Of a stretch of 64,000 nt of DNA, positions 31,534-44,432 are shown one piece after another (within the stretch, counting starts at the first letter, position 1; each line of letters opens with the position of its first letter). The stretch covers positions 1-64,000 of the forward strand of contig CAIVZZ010000005.1 of assembly GCA_903910555.1 (NCBI GenBank), in the 5' to 3' direction. The stretch comes from an uncultured Gemmatimonadota bacterium. Its GTDB lineage: Bacteria; Gemmatimonadota; Gemmatimonadetes; Gemmatimonadales; Gemmatimonadaceae. The notes under the pieces were generated by a model that was not told where the DNA came from, did not search any database, and saw nothing but the letters and a program-made list of their open reading frames with translations. The position numbers and the translations under genes are program-made.

Positions 31534-31613
31534 TGTCTCTCATAGCTATTCACGTTATATCAACGGTGCTCAGTTTTGCGCCGTAAAAGAGTATCCTCTT
31601 GGAGTCCCCCATC

Positions 31614-34478
31614 ATGCGTTCATTTTCGAAACTGCCGGCTGTCGCGCTTGCATTTGCGCTGATCGCTGGCGCGTCCGCGCCGGTTGCTGCGCAGGTCACC
31701 ACGCCGAAGGAATTTTTCGGTCACAACATCGGCGACGACTACTGGCTGCCGAACTACACCCAGTTCCTTGCCTACTGGCAGAAGATCGCGAAGCAGTCGC
31801 CGCGCGCTCATCTCGATACGATCGGCATGACGGCAGAGGGCCGGCCGCAGCTGAGCATGGTGGTCTCGAGTCCTGAGAACATCAAGAATCTCGCGCGCTA
31901 TAAGGAAATCGCGAAGAAACTTTCGTACGCCGAAATCACCGAGGCTGAAGCGCACGCGCTCGCCAAGGAAGGAAAGGCGGTGATGTGGATCGACGGCGGC
32001 CTTCACGCGAGCGAAGTGCTCGGCGCGAACCAGCTGATCCAGACCAACTACGATTTCCTCACGATGAATGACGAGGAAACGCAGCGCATTCTCAAGGATG
32101 TGATCATCGTCTTCGTGCATGCGAATCCAGACGGCATGGAGCTGATCGCGAACTGGTACAACAAAGAGCCGGATCCAAAAAAGAAGAACATGAATGTCCC
32201 CGTGCTCTATCAGAAGTACATCGGGCACGATGACAATCGCGACTTCTATATGTCGAATCAGAACGAAACGACGAACATGAACAAGCGGATGTACCTCGAG
32301 TGGTATCCGCAGATCGTGTACAACCATCACCAGACCGGCCCGGCGGGCGCCGTCATGTTCGCGCCGCCCTTTCGCGATCCGGCCAATTATTTCTTCCATC
32401 CGGGCATGATCACCGGCCTCGACATGGTCGGCGCGGCGATCAAGGACCGCATGGTCCGCGAAGACAAGCCGGGCGTCGTGGATCGTTCGCTCTCGTCGTA
32501 TTCGACGTGGTGGAACGGCGGTCTTCGCACGGAGGCGTATTTCCACAACATGGTCGGCATTCTTACGGAAGCGATCGGCAACCCGACGCCGCAGACGATT
32601 CCGTTCGTACCCGAGCGGTTGCTGCGTTTCGCCGACGAAGTGCTGCCGCTCGCGCCGTTGCAGGAGTGGCACTTCAAACAGTCGATCGATTACTCGGTGA
32701 CTGCGAACCGCGCGCTGCTCGACCTGCTCCAGAGAAATCGTGAGACGTGGTTGTTCAACACCTGGAAGATGGGTCACGACGAAATCAAATGGGGAAATGA
32801 GGACAACTGGATCGTGACGCCGCACGTGCTTGCCGATGTCGAGGCGAAGGCTGCGGCCGCAGCGGCCGCCAACGGTGTGGGACGCGGCGGCCGTGGTGGC
32901 GCCGCAGGTGCGGCAGGCGATGTCAATCCAGATTTTGCAGCGGCGTTTGGCGGCGGTTCCGCGCCGGCTGCACTGTACGCTGACTTCAAGAAGCCCGAAG
33001 CACGCATGCCGCGCGGATATATTCTCCCCGCGAATCAGCCGGATTTTCTCACGGCGGAAAAATTCCTCGTCGCGCTTCAGAAGGTCGGTTTGATTGTGCA
33101 TCGCGCGAGCGCGCAGTTCACGGTGGCCGGCAAGAGCTATCCGGCTGGATCGTACGTGGTGAAGTCGGCGCAGGCATATCGCGCCGACGTGCTCGACATG
33201 TTCGAGCCGCAGGATCACCCGAACGATTTCAAATTTCCGGGCGCACCGCCGACCCGTCCGTACGACAACGCCGGCTGGACGCTCGCTCTGCAGATGGGCG
33301 TGAAGTTCGATCGTATCCTCGATGCGTTCGACGGACCGTTCGTGAAGCTCGATCCGCTCAAGGATCGCATCACACCGACGGCAACGACGGTCGCAACGAC
33401 CGGCGCGGGCTGGACGCTCTCGCCAAAGGTGAATGATTCGTATCACGCGCTGAGTCGTCTGTGGGCCGCGGGCGCCGATGTGTATCGCTTGCAGCATTCG
33501 GCGAACATCGGCGGCAAGGCGTATCCCGCCGGCACGCTCTATATCCCGGCCAATGCCAAGAGCACGCCGGTCGTCCAGAAATCAGCGAAGGACATTGGCG
33601 TAACGTTCGAATCGTCGAGTGATCTCGCGAGCGTGAGCGAGAAACTTCCGGCGCTGCGCATTGGTTTGTGGGATCGTTTTGGCGGCTCGATGCCAAGCGG
33701 CCAGATGCGCTGGCTGATGGAGCAGTACGAACTGCCGTTCCGCGTTGTGTATCCGCAGGAACTCGACGCGGGAAATCTGCGCGCGAAGTTCGACGTGCTG
33801 ATTTTCCCGGAGAACTCGATTCCGGGTGTTGGCAACGGTCGCGGTGGACGCGGCGGCGGTGGTGGTGGAGGCGGTGGTGGCCGCGGTCAGGACACGACGT
33901 CGCTACCGGCGGAGTTCCGCTCGTGGACTGGAAATGTTTCCGCCGCGACGATTCCGAAGCTGAAGGAATTCCTGAATGCAGGCGGCCGGATCGTCGCGAT
34001 CGGACCGTCGTCGATCAACATCGCGCAGCAGCTCGGGCTGCCGGTCACCAACCATCTCGTTGAGCGCACGCCGACGGGTTCGGCGGGTTCGCCGCTGCCG
34101 GCTGAGAAGTACTACGTGCCCGGCTCGCTGCTCGAGGTCGCGTATGACACGACACTCGACGCGACGCGCGGTGAGGAATCACACGGAATTGTTTTCTTCG
34201 ACAACAGCCCGGTGATGCGGCTCGGACCGGATGCAGAGGCGAAGGGTGTGAAGCCAATCGCGTGGTTCGAGAACGGAACGCCACTGCGCAGCGGCTGGGC
34301 GTGGGGACAGAATTATCTGGACGGTGGAGTGGCGATGGCGGAGGCGAAGCTTGGCAGTGGAACGGTGTACCTGTTTGGTCCGGAGATCACGTTCCGGGCG
34401 CAGCCGGCGGCGACATTCAAGCTGCTGTTTAATGCGATTGTTGGGGGGAGCAAAACCGACACGAGGATTGTGCCGTAA
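31614..34478 (+). CDS. M14 family zinc carboxypeptidase-like protein
   Basis: MWIDGGLHASEVLGANQLIQ (HXXE), YNHHQTGPAG; signal peptide; two Gly-rich inserts. Confidence 0.9.
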   Translation: MRSFSKLPAVALAFALIAGASAPVAAQVTTPKEFFGHNIGDDYWLPNYTQFLAYWQKIAKQSPRAHLDTIGMTAEGRPQLSMVVSSPENIKNLARYKEIAKKLSYAEITEAEAHALAKEGKAVMWIDGGLHASEVLGANQLIQTNYDFLTMNDEETQRILKDVIIVFVHANPDGMELIANWYNKEPDPKKKNMNVPVLYQKYIGHDDNRDFYMSNQNETTNMNKRMYLEWYPQIVYNHHQTGPAGAVMFAPPFRDPANYFFHPGMITGLDMVGAAIKDRMVREDKPGVVDRSLSSYSTWWNGGLRTEAYFHNMVGILTEAIGNPTPQTIPFVPERLLRFADEVLPLAPLQEWHFKQSIDYSVTANRALLDLLQRNRETWLFNTWKMGHDEIKWGNEDNWIVTPHVLADVEAKAAAAAAANGVGRGGRGGAAGAAGDVNPDFAAAFGGGSAPAALYADFKKPEARMPRGYILPANQPDFLTAEKFLVALQKVGLIVHRASAQFTVAGKSYPAGSYVVKSAQAYRADVLDMFEPQDHPNDFKFPGAPPTRPYDNAGWTLALQMGVKFDRILDAFDGPFVKLDPLKDRITPTATTVATTGAGWTLSPKVNDSYHALSRLWAAGADVYRLQHSANIGGKAYPAGTLYIPANAKSTPVVQKSAKDIGVTFESSSDLASVSEKLPALRIGLWDRFGGSMPSGQMRWLMEQYELPFRVVYPQELDAGNLRAKFDVLIFPENSIPGVGNGRGGRGGGGGGGGGGRGQDTTSLPAEFRSWTGNVSAATIPKLKEFLNAGGRIVAIGPSSINIAQQLGLPVTNHLVERTPTGSAGSPLPAEKYYVPGSLLEVAYDTTLDATRGEESHGIVFFDNSPVMRLGPDAEAKGVKPIAWFENGTPLRSGWAWGQNYLDGGVAMAEAKLGSGTVYLFGPEITFRAQPAATFKLLFNAIVGGSKTDTRIVP

Positions 34479-39546: not shown

Positions 39547-42500
39547 TTATCGGTCGTAGGCGAGGATTGGCGCTAGCCAGCGCTCTGCTTCCTTTATATC
39601 TACGCCCTTGCGAGCCGAATAGTTGGTGACCTGATCCTGCTCGATTTTGCCAACTCCGAAGTACGCGGACTGCGGATTCCAGAAGAAATAGCCGCTGACG
39701 GATGCTGTCGGAAACATGGCGAAGCTCTCTGTGAGCTCGATTCCGGCCCGCTCGGTTGCGCCGAGCAAGTCGAATATGGTTCGCTTTTCGGTGTGGTCGG
39801 GGCACGCCGGATACCCCGGTGCCGGCCGGATCCCCTGGTACTGCTCGCGAATAATCGCGGAATTATCCAGGTGCTCGTCGGGGGCGTAACCCCAAAACTC
39901 GCGGCGGACGCGTTCGTGCAGCCGCTCGGCAAGCGCCTCCGCGAGGCGATCGGCGAGCGCTTTCACCATGATCGAGCTGTAATCGTCATGCGCGGCCTCG
40001 AACTCGGCGACCTTGGCATCAACGCCGATGCCCGTGGTAACCGTGAACAATCCCATCCAATCGGTGAGACCGGTGGAGCACGGCGCGACAAAATCCGCGA
40101 GCGCTGAGTTCGCGCGCCCGTCCGCCTTCACCATCTGCTGGCGGATTGTGTGAATCGTCGCGATCGGCTTGTACTCATCACTGCGCTCTAACGGCTTGCG
40201 TCCGACGTCTTCCCAAAGCTGGATATCTTCCGCGCCGTCGGAATTGGCCGGGAAAAATCCCACCACCGCCCGCGGCTTCAGCCATTTCTCCTCGACAATC
40301 TTCCTCAGCATCGCCTGCGCATCGTTGAACAAGCTGCGCGCAGCCGGGCCGACTGTGGGATCCTCGAGAATGTCCGGATAGTGCCCTGCGAGCTCCCACG
40401 TCTGAAAAAAGGGCGTCCAGTCGATCCGCGGCACGAGATCGCCGAGTGGGAACTGCGTTTCGTCGTAGGTGCGAACGCCCGTGAAGCTTGGCTTTGGCGG
40501 CGAGATGGTAGTCCAATCAACCTGAACCTTGTTCGCGCGTGCCTGCTCGAGCGTCTGCGTTTTTGTATCGCGACGGCGTTCCGCGCGGCGCTCGCGAACT
40601 TCTTTGTATTCCGCGCGCGTCTCCTGCACGAACGTGTCGCGTTGGGTATCAGAGAGAAGTGCACTTGCAACGCCGACGGCGCGCGACGCATCGAGCACGT
40701 AGACGACCGGGCCCGAGTAGTGGGGCTCGATTTTCACCGCGGTGTGCACTTTGCTCGTGGTTGCGCCGCCAATGAGCAACGGAATCGCGAATCCTTCGCG
40801 CTCCATCTCGCCGGCGACGAACGCCATTTCTTCGAGTGATGGCGTGATCAGCCCGGAGAGACCGATGATATCGGCCTTCTCGCGAATCGCCGTCTCGAGG
40901 ATTTTGGCGCACGGGACCATCACACCTAAATCGATCACTTCGTAGTTGTTGCATTGCAAAACTACGCCGACAATGTTCTTGCCGATGTCGTGCACGTCGC
41001 CCTTCACCGTGGCGACGACGACTTTTCCTTTCGCGCGCGTGTCCGCGTTCTTCACCTTTTCCGCTTCGATGTACGGAATGAGGTGCGCAACCGCGCGCTT
41101 CATGACCCGCGCGCTCTTTACGACCTGCGGCAAAAACATCTTACCCGAGCCGAACAAGTCGCCGACGACGTTCATTCCGTCCATCAGCGGCCCTTCGATC
41201 ACTTCGATCGGGCGTTCGGCTAGTTTGCGCGCTTCCTCGGTGTCGTCAACTACGAAATCCGCGATTCCATGAACGAGTGCGTGCTTCAGTCGCTCGTGCA
41301 CCGGCGCTTCGCGCCACTCCAGATTCGTCGCCTGCTTTGCGGCGTCGCCTTTTACTGACTCGGCAGCCTCGAGCAGCCGTTCTGTCGCGTCCGGCCGCCG
41401 ATTCAGAACAACGTCTTCAACAAGCTCGAGCAGTTTTGGCGGCAGATCGGAATAGAGCGGGAGCGCGCCCGCGTTCACGATCCCCATGTCCATCCCCGCG
41501 GCTACCGCGTGGTAGAGGAACACGGTGTGGATCGCCTCGCGTACCGCGTTGTTGCCGCGGAACGAGAACGAGACGTTGCTCACGCCACCGCTGACATGCA
41601 CGTACGGAAGCCGCGCCTTGATTTCACGAGTGGCTTCGATGAAATCGACGGCGTAGTTGTTGTGCTCTTCGATTCCCGTCGCGATCGCGAAAATGTTCGG
41701 ATCGAAGATGATATCTTCGGGCGGGAATCCGACTTGTTCGGTGAGGATTTTATAAGCGCGCTCGCAGATAGAAATCTTGCGGGCAGCCGTATCAGCCTGA
41801 CCTTGCTCGTCGAACGCCATTACGATCACGGCCGCGCCGTAGCGGCGGACGAGAGTGGCCTGACGAATGAACTCGTCCTCGCCCTCTTTCATCGAGATGG
41901 AATTGACGACGCCTTTGCCCTGAAGACACTTGAGCCCTGTCTCGATGACTTTCCACTTGGAAGAGTCGAGCATGAACGGCACTCGGGCGATTGCCGGCTC
42001 CGTGGCGGCGAGATTCAGATACTTCTTCATCGCCGCGTCGGCGTCGAGCATTCCTTCGTCGAAATTGATATCGATGATCACCGCGCCGGCTTCAACTTGC
42101 TGGCGCGCGACCTCGAGTGCGGCGTCGTAGTCGTCGGCGAGAATCAGTTTCTTGAACTTCGCCGAGCCGGTGACGTTGGTGCGTTCACCGACGTTCACGA
42201 AGTTTGTTTCGGGCCCGATGGTCTGCGGCTCAAGCCCAGCGAGACGCAAACGCTTTGGCACATCCGGAATCGCGCGCGGTGCGATTCCTTTGACGGCGCG
42301 CGCGATCGCGGCGATATGCGCCGGCGTCGTTCCGCAGCAACCGCCCACGATGTTGATGAAACCCGCCTCGGCGAACTCTTTGAGAATTCCGGAGGTGTAC
42401 GACGGCGTTTCATCGTACTCGCCCATTTCGTTGGGCAGGCCCGCGTTCGGATGCACGCTCGTCCAGCAGGGCGCGACGCGTGAAAGCTCCTGGATATAGG

Positions 42501-43287
42501 CTCGGAGATCTTTCGCGCCGAGTGCGCAGTTGAGGCCGACGGACAGCGGGCGCGCGTGGGCGACCGAATTCCAGAATGCTTCGGTGGTTTGGCCTGAGAG
42601 CGTGCGTCCGCTCTGATCGGTGATTGTGCCCGAGATCATCACCGGGACGCGTGTGTTGTCGTGCGCGAAAACTTCTTCGATAGCGAAGAGTGCGGCCTTC
42701 GCGTTCAGTGTGTCGAAGATCGTCTCTACGAGCAGCAGATCCGCGCCGCCGGCGAGCAGCGCTCGCGCCGCTTCGATGTAAGCAACGACGAGTTCATCGA
42801 ACGAGACATTGCGAAAGCCGGCATCTTCGACGCGCGGCGAGATGCTGGCTGTGCGATTCGTGGGCCCAAGCACGCCGGCCACATAACGCGGCTTGCCGTC
42901 CTTTTTCTCTGCCGCATCGCAACGGTCACGCGCGAGACGCGCGCCCGCTTCGCAAAGGTCGGCGGCAAGCTCTTCCATCCCGTAGTCGGCCATCGCGACC
43001 CGAGTGGAGTTGAACGTGTTGGTTTCGATGATATCCGCGCCAGCGTCGAGATACGCTGAGTGGATATCGCCAATAGCGGTAGGGCGGGTGAGGACGAGGA
43101 GATCGTTGTTCCCCTTGAGGTCGCGCGGCCAGTCTGCAAAGCGCTCGCCGCGATATTCTTTCTCGCCGAGCCGGAATTTCTGGATCTCCGTCCCCATTCC
43201 GCCATCGAGAATGAGAATGCGGCGGCCGAGCTCCTGCTTGAGGAGCTCTAGTCGCGCAGCACGATCGAATGGCGGCTGCGCGCTCAT
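39547..43287 (-). CDS. metH: Cobalamin-dependent methionine synthase
   Basis: [67 protein letters not shown]; activation domain [29 protein letters not shown]. Confidence 0.98.
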
Positions 43288-44204
43288 CGGTCCCCGGTCT
43301 GGTGTCCTCGGACCATATCAGACAGTCGCCCACCCGGCGCCACTGCCGGCCTCAGCCCGAGAATATGACAGAGCGCGTACGACAGATCAGCACGGTTAAG
43401 CGTGTAGAAGTGGAACTCAGTGATCCCCGCATCAGCCAATTGTCGGCACTGTTCTGCCGCGACCGTAATCGCGACGAGCTTGCGCGTATCGGGATCGCTC
43501 TCGAGTCCTGCGAACAACGGCGCCATCGCACTCGGCACAGTCGCGCCCGCTGTTGCGGCAAAGCGCGTCATCTGCGTGAAGTTCGTCACCGGCATGATGC
43601 CGGGCACGATCGGAATCGTGATCCCCGCTTTGCGGGCCCGCTCGATGAAGCGCAGATAGAACGCGTTCTCGAAAAAGAACTGCGTGATCGCGCGTGAGGC
43701 ACCGGCGTCGATTTTTCGCTTGAGATTATCGAGCTCAATATCGATTGAGCGCGAATCCGGATGACCTTCAGGAAACGTCGCGACCGTGACTTCGAAGTCG
43801 TGCCGCTTCTTGAGCGACTCGACCAGCTGCGAAGCGTACGGGTAACCCTCCGGATGCGGCACATATGCGCCCGTGCCCGGAGCCGGATCGCCGCGCAGCG
43901 CAACCACGTGGCGCACCCCCATCTCCCAGTACGAATCCGCGACCGCGTTCACTTCGTGGCACGCCGCATCAGCGCAGGTGAGGTGCGCGGCAGGGACGAG
44001 CGAAGTCTCGTTGAGAATTCGCTGAACTGTTTTGTGCGTACGCTCACGCGTCGATCCACCGGCGCCGTATGTGACCGAGACGAATTTTGGAGCGAGCGGT
44101 TCGAGTCGCTTCACGGCACGCCACAGCGTCTCCTCCATCTCCGGTGTTTTCGGAGGGAAGAACTCAAAGGAGACGTTGAACGGCGCGGCGAGGCTAAGTG
44201 GCAT
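43284..44204 (-). CDS. metF: Methylenetetrahydrofolate reductase
   Basis: [19 protein letters not shown]...[16 protein letters not shown]...[12 protein letters not shown]; 4-bp overlap with metH. Confidence 0.97.
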
Positions 44205-44220
44205 CTATATAGAAGGGACG

Positions 44221-44250
44221 AAAAATGCCCGGGCATGTGGAGGCCCGGGC
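44221..44250 (-). terminator. Intrinsic terminator in metF leader
   Basis: Minus strand: GCCCGGGC CTCCACAT GCCCGGGC ATTTTT between aptamer and metF ATG. Confidence 0.85.
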
Positions 44251-44251
44251 C

Positions 44252-44308
44252 GGCGCTTTAGCTGAATATTTAACGTGGCCGCAATTTGCCTCCAAATCGC
44301 CACGGGAT
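44252..44308 (-). ncRNA. SAM-II riboswitch aptamer upstream of metF-metH
   Basis: Minus strand CCCGUGGCGAUUUGGAGGCAAAUUGCGGCCACGUUAAAUAUUCAGCUAAAGCGCC; matches recalled SAM-II pattern (GUGGnGAUUUG...UUGC...GCCACGUUAAA...GCUAAA). Confidence 0.9.
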
Positions 44309-44432
44309 CGGTTTTTCTACTACATCATTGTATCCGGATGAACGGATGGAGTCAAGGGCTAGGCTGCTGTCCACGGAACCCAGTACAGGCCAGTCCGGTG
44401 ACCGAGACAGTGATGCGCAGGGTAGCCTCAGT

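Follow-up and report, generated by a model that had tools for sequence, protein, structure and literature searches.

The metF-metH operon of an uncultured gemmatimonad is preceded by a genuine SAM-II riboswitch, which is predicted to sense SAM. The operon lies in a stretch of 64,000 nucleotides from contig CAIVZZ010000005.1, called the window hereafter. Judged from sequence comparison and folding, the leader probably works as a transcriptional OFF switch equipped with an antiterminator, with a putative SahR-like repressor acting in addition at the promoter; we give this reading a probability of about 0.8. The riboswitch itself is of a known kind. New here are the proposed antiterminator and the probable control of one operon by both a protein and an RNA, in a host phylum that is little described for SAM-II switches.

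The genes downstream of the leader are the following:

43284-44204, minus strand: metF, 5,10-methylenetetrahydrofolate reductase, 306 amino acids (TIGR00676, 331.9 bits; PF02219, 314.2 bits)
39547-43287, minus strand: metH, B12-dependent methionine synthase, 1246 amino acids (TIGR02082, 1737 bits; PF02965)

These profile matches bear out the metF-metH target named in an earlier note on this DNA. The two genes overlap by the sequence ATGA, and the profile search recovered the domains of a cobalamin-dependent methionine synthase in metH. The closest matches of metF come from Gemmatimonadetes MAGs, at 71-80% identity, in agreement with the non-proteobacterial host that the note had suspected. For a gemmatimonad metF that is 71% identical (JAGGAG010000007.1), the 2.5 kb flanking the gene on each side contain no SAM-II match. 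Since alphaproteobacterial MetF proteins ranked next in a pattern-based search, transfer of metF together with its SAM-II leader from Alphaproteobacteria was considered; this scenario was dropped, as none of the alphaproteobacterial loci among the first 20 metF loci scanned has SAM-II beside metF. Elsewhere in the window, a large ORF (31599-34478, plus strand) appears by eye to be zinc-carboxypeptidase-like and contains long glycine-rich stretches.

Upstream of metF, an Rfam scan of the whole window returned a single match, to RF00521 (SAM_alpha), at 44238-44313 on the minus strand (48.8 bits and E 6e-8, where the gathering score is 36). When the entire 3.2-Mb genome was scanned, the metF leader was again the only RF00521 match (E 7e-10). 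The SAM-II identity proposed in the earlier note is confirmed by this match, and the minus-strand sequence that it had quoted from the region upstream of metF is exact. The elements of the aptamer are:

44238-44313, minus strand: SAM-II aptamer as matched by RF00521, with its core spanning roughly 44304-44252; at its 3' end the model reaches into the terminator
44299-44304, minus strand: 5' strand of P1, CGUGGC (alignment to the model, genus alignment)
44274-44279, minus strand: 3' strand of P1, GCCACG (alignment to the model, genus alignment)
44288-44290, minus strand: 5' strand of P2, upper part, GGC (SAM-II fold read from the sequence)
44284-44281, minus strand: 5' strand of P2, lower part, UUGC (likewise)
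44252-44254, minus strand: 3' strand of P2, GCC (likewise)
44262-44258, minus strand: 3' strand of P2, lower part, GCUAA (likewise)

In the alignment to the RF00521 model, the conserved blocks GAUUUG, UUGC, GUUAAA and GCUAAAG are all kept, as are all the pairs of P1, and an alignment of the genus shows that the aptamer of the metF leader is strictly conserved within it. The predicted P2 helix was assigned in a different way, namely by reading it off the sequence via the known SAM-II fold; the folding programs used here do not score pseudoknots. Its strands, GGC with GCC and UUGC with GCUAA, are present by inspection, and their pairs are nearly invariant in the genus alignment.

The aptamer is framed by a predicted promoter on one side and by a terminator on the other:

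44327-44355, minus strand: sigma-70-type promoter, TTGACT-17-TACAAT (10 of 12 consensus matches; one found where 0.4 were expected)
44221-44250, minus strand: intrinsic terminator with an 8-bp G+C stem, an 8-nt loop and AUUUUU (terminator scan; stem -19.1 kcal/mol)

The predicted promoter ends 13 nt upstream of the aptamer match, transcription probably starts near 44320, and the same arrangement of -35 and -10 boxes is found in the metF leaders of relatives. On the other side, the terminator reads GCCCGGGC-CUCCACAU-GCCCGGGC followed by AUUUUU; its eight pairs are all G+C, it ends in U5, and it begins 1 nt behind the aptamer core. The earlier note had described this GCCCGGGC-N8-GCCCGGGC-AUUUUU element before metF, which is indeed there, but it had placed it about 5 nt behind the quoted sequence instead of 1 nt. 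By a generic scan such hairpins are not rare (one found, where shuffles of 1.5 kb would give 1.2), so that the meaning of this one rests on its place behind the aptamer and on its recurrence in relatives, terminators being kept by eye in 18 of the 20 metF leaders. Because the ORFs that precede the leader run opposite to the leader strand, the simplest view is that this terminator belongs to the leader and does not close a gene further upstream. The start codon of metF follows about 16 nt past the U-tract, and no Shine-Dalgarno-like sequence is found between the two. Two metF leaders of the genus (L222 in genome G315 and L230 in genome G056) carry the aptamer and GCCTCG with no visible U-tract terminator, and their mechanism appears to have changed or been lost.

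The terminator shares sequence with a second helix that is proposed to act as an antiterminator:

44288-44294, minus strand: proposed 5' strand of the antiterminator, UGGAGGC, which shares GGC with P2 (folding, swap test)
44238-44244, minus strand: proposed 3' strand of the antiterminator, GCCUCCA, corresponding to the end of the 5' arm of the terminator plus its loop (folding, swap test, conservation)

Folding of the growing transcript, numbered from position 1 at 44322, brought out this helix. Just before the 3' arm of the terminator emerges, the ligand-free minimum-energy fold (-22.6 kcal/mol) pairs U29-C35, in the loop of P1, with G79-A85, and further pairs occupy the remainder of the 5' arm of the terminator. 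Once the hairpin is complete, in a 96-nt RNA, ligand-free folding gives -34.9 kcal/mol for the antiterminator as against -32.0 kcal/mol for enforced P1 plus terminator. Blocking the aptamer core, to imitate the SAM-bound state, lets the terminator form. As G33, G34 and C35 also provide the upper P2 pairing with GCC (44254-44252), the antiterminator and the SAM-bound state are predicted to be mutually exclusive.

The proposed mechanism would run as follows. At low SAM, UGGAGGC (44294-44288) in the loop of P1 would pair with GCCUCCA (44244-44238), neighbouring pairs would occupy the rest of the 5' arm of the terminator, and RNA polymerase would read through. At high SAM, GGC would be tied up with GCC in the P2 pseudoknot, which would block the antiterminator; the terminator would then fold and the polymerase would stop near 44221.

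Comparison with other leaders lends this scheme support of several kinds. Within the metF clade, all 20 leaders have GCCTC (GCCTT in one of them) within the terminator loop or next to it, a conservation that pairing within the hairpin alone does not require. When these transcripts were folded up to the 3' arm, only 8 of the 20 formed the antiterminator helix. At the sixth pair of this helix, 12 of the 20 leaders have complementary bases, where about 9 would be expected from the composition of the columns, and the core pairs are invariant; covariation within the clade is therefore unconvincing, and the support that the clade provides is one of conservation. At the scale of the phylum, a swap test was applied to 102 distinct terminator-bearing leaders, with terminators exchanged 300 times between leaders that have a different strand. 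Uninterrupted complements of 6 or more bases, linking the region of the P2 5' strand to the 5' arm plus loop of the terminator, were found in 22% of the leaders versus 4% in the swaps (the highest of the 300 reaching 9%), and complements of 5 bases in 42% versus 20%, in a test that counts related sequences, which are not independent. A second design, in which the terminator carries a complement to the 3' strand of P2, was found in 16% of the same 102 leaders versus 4% in the swaps, and is exemplified by GCUAAAACGC with GCGUUUUAGC in leader L185. Duplex energies compared with single-leader shuffles gave a modest signal (20 of 96 leaders at 5% or less), since everything in these leaders is G+C-rich; contiguous complementarity tested with swaps across loci was more informative. 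Alphaproteobacterial leaders show the 5'-strand design by eye as well, for instance L276, with GGCCGGTC facing GACCGGC. A P2-strand decoy inside the terminator is thus likely to be a recurrent expression platform of SAM-II riboswitches, and the leader of the window likely belongs to the 5'-strand decoy type. For SAM-II leaders of the terminator type, this provides a rule on antitermination that can be put to the test, namely that the terminator holds a decoy of one P2 strand.

Three other readings were weighed against this switch. According to the first, which we consider unlikely, a real aptamer is followed by a constitutive terminator, which would only limit expression or make a short RNA, and SAM would act on RNA stability or on translation. 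This has likewise been proposed for S. meliloti metA, where a terminator lies behind SAM-II and no antiterminator is predicted (PMC9373788), and it would suit both the great stability of the 8-bp G+C stem (-19.1 kcal/mol) and the fact that the ligand-free full-length fold of several metF relatives is already P1 plus terminator. However, the lack of a Shine-Dalgarno-like sequence near the metF start leaves no obvious target for direct occlusion of translation, and the retention in the loop of a complement to the aptamer strand throughout the 20 metF leaders also speaks against this reading. A second reading, in which the switch acts on translation of metF and the terminator-like hairpin is incidental, is highly improbable: a translational mode probably does exist in the phylum, given gemmatimonad SAM-II leaders in which metH starts about 9 nt past the aptamer, but in the window the hairpin and its U5 sit between the aptamer and a metF start codon devoid of any Shine-Dalgarno-like sequence, and terminators are kept by eye in 18/20 metF leaders. 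Least probable of all is a degraded or ligand-shifted aptamer that has lost SAM sensing, for although its 48.8 bits do not reach the 77-82 bits scored by the best members from Alphaproteobacteria and its P2 is short, with three upper pairs, the score is well over the gathering cut-off, all conserved blocks are intact, the aptamer is strictly conserved within the genus, and the target genes are SAM-cycle genes.

Besides the preferred transcriptional OFF switch, the same operon carries signs of a second input, at the promoter:

44321-44342, minus strand: putative SahR-like operator TTCATCCGGATACAATGATGTA (ATC-N10-GAT), which overlaps the -10 box (leader counts, palindrome of the ahcY operon, published consensus)

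This palindrome spans the spacer and the -10 region of the predicted metF promoter. Of 20 distinct metF leaders, 19 contain the pattern ATC-N10-GAT, versus 1/68 metH leaders and 1/36 other leaders; in shuffles its frequency is 0.9%. In the genome of the window, a palindrome that differs by one base from the metF site precedes an arsR-methyltransferase-ahcY operon, whose regulator (312 amino acids) combines an ArsR-type domain (PF01022) with a methyltransferase domain and is followed by ahcY (AdoHcyase). SahR also carries a methyltransferase-like domain. In seven loci of the genus, TTCATCCGGATATACGGATGAA or close variants of it stand before arsR-methyltransferase-ahcY, and the reversed control pattern gave no match. 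The regulators SahR and SamR share the consensus ATC-10 nt-GAT and have ahcY, metH and metF as core targets (PMC4239095), and SahR is a repressor of the ArsR family whose binding to its operator depends on SAH (PMC8877191).

From the near-identical palindromes at metF and at arsR-methyltransferase-ahcY we infer that a SahR-like control operates in addition to the riboswitch. A SahR-like protein would repress metF-metH and be released by SAH, and the riboswitch would terminate transcription at high SAM. The repressor, an ArsR-methyltransferase protein encoded beside ahcY, would bind the operator over the -10 box, and SAH via the protein and SAM via the RNA would thus act on the same promoter and leader. 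For the complete two-input SAM/SAH gate, with a SahR-like repressor at the promoter, SAM-II termination about 100 nt later and an antiterminator drawn from a pseudoknot strand, we see an even chance. If the operator reading is true, a single operon senses SAH by a protein and SAM by an RNA, in series, and would amount to a compact natural gauge of the capacity for methylation.

SAM-II riboswitches are far from rare in the host phylum. RF00521 matches occur in 262 of 395 Gemmatimonadota genomes, in 221 of them above the cut-off, and in 17 of the 18 genomes of the window's genus; a genome often has at least two. In 120 leaders of the phylum sample that were classified by their downstream gene, this gene is metF in the genus of the window and its near relatives and metH in most other leaders, with smaller groups formed by panB, threonine-synthase-like, metX-like, O-acetylhomoserine sulfhydrylase and homoserine dehydrogenase genes. 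SAM-II is thus the common SAM switch of a phylum outside Proteobacteria, and stands there mostly before metH; a link between SAM-II and Gemmatimonadota was not found in the open-access literature searched, where absence is no proof. In six leaders (L092, L093, L096, L099, L102 and L122), the start codon of metH lies about 9 nt past SAM-II, with no clear terminator, and the phylum thus seems to have expression platforms of both types. In genome G113, a SAM-II of the terminator type stands in addition before another gene (L169); a single genome thus seems to use both modes.

Two further groups of leaders can be mentioned. Ten second copies of SAM-II (L221, L223-L229, L231 and L232), from several genomes of the window's genus, have CAUUU in place of the conserved GAUUU and score 27-35 bits, below the Rfam cut-off; they could represent a variant aptamer with a changed affinity. 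The other group is a second type of SAM-II-led operon, seen at positions 560-4311 of L306 and in L300-L305 and L307, which is not found behind SAM-II in the genome of the window. In L306, SAM-II is followed by panB, a MoaD/ThiS-like carrier, a ThiF-rhodanese protein and a threonine-synthase-like PLP enzyme, and some loci of this type add a GHMP kinase, likely a homoserine kinase. The MoaD/ThiS-like sulfur carrier, within ORF 1489-1866 of L306, ends in GG by eye. By analogy with CysO/CysM, this operon type possibly encodes a sulfur-carrier-dependent route from O-phosphohomoserine to homocysteine.

Compared with known systems, the leader of the window has the classic SAM-II architecture and is no exception. 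The earlier note had regarded transcriptional control as unusual for SAM-II, a view contradicted by the terminators that SAM-II leaders often carry (Corbino 2005, PMC1273637; Barrick & Breaker 2007) and by the S. meliloti metZ switch, which has been modelled as terminating (PMC9373788). Its overall reading holds for the riboswitch, the terminator, the target operon and the host; it fails for the supposedly unusual architecture, and it had overlooked the antiterminator and the operator. As in the alphaproteobacterial SAM-II leaders with terminators, an aptamer is found here with a promoter a few nucleotides before P1, a terminator between P2 and the ORF, a gene of the methionine/SAM cycle downstream and an inferred OFF logic (Corbino 2005, PMC1273637). 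By contrast, the host belongs to Gemmatimonadota, the target is metF-metH instead of metA, metX, metY or metZ, and neither the P2 5' strand GGAGGC nor its decoy has the sequence seen in Alphaproteobacteria (PMC1273637). S. meliloti metZ shares the prediction of a SAM-induced terminator, and a riboswitch RNA of about 100 nt has been seen there, but host and target gene are different (PMC9373788). The translational SAM-II of Sargasso Sea metX (PDB 2QWY) belongs to the same aptamer class; its ribosome-binding site lies in P2, whereas none is visible in the window, where a terminator is present instead (PMC10907184). Finally, the SahR/SamR regulons share with the window's genome an ArsR-family regulator beside ahcY and ATC-10 nt-GAT at both its own promoter and that of metF(-metH) (PMC4239095); what differs here is the gemmatimonad host and the fact that the putative operator is combined with a SAM-II leader in one and the same transcript.
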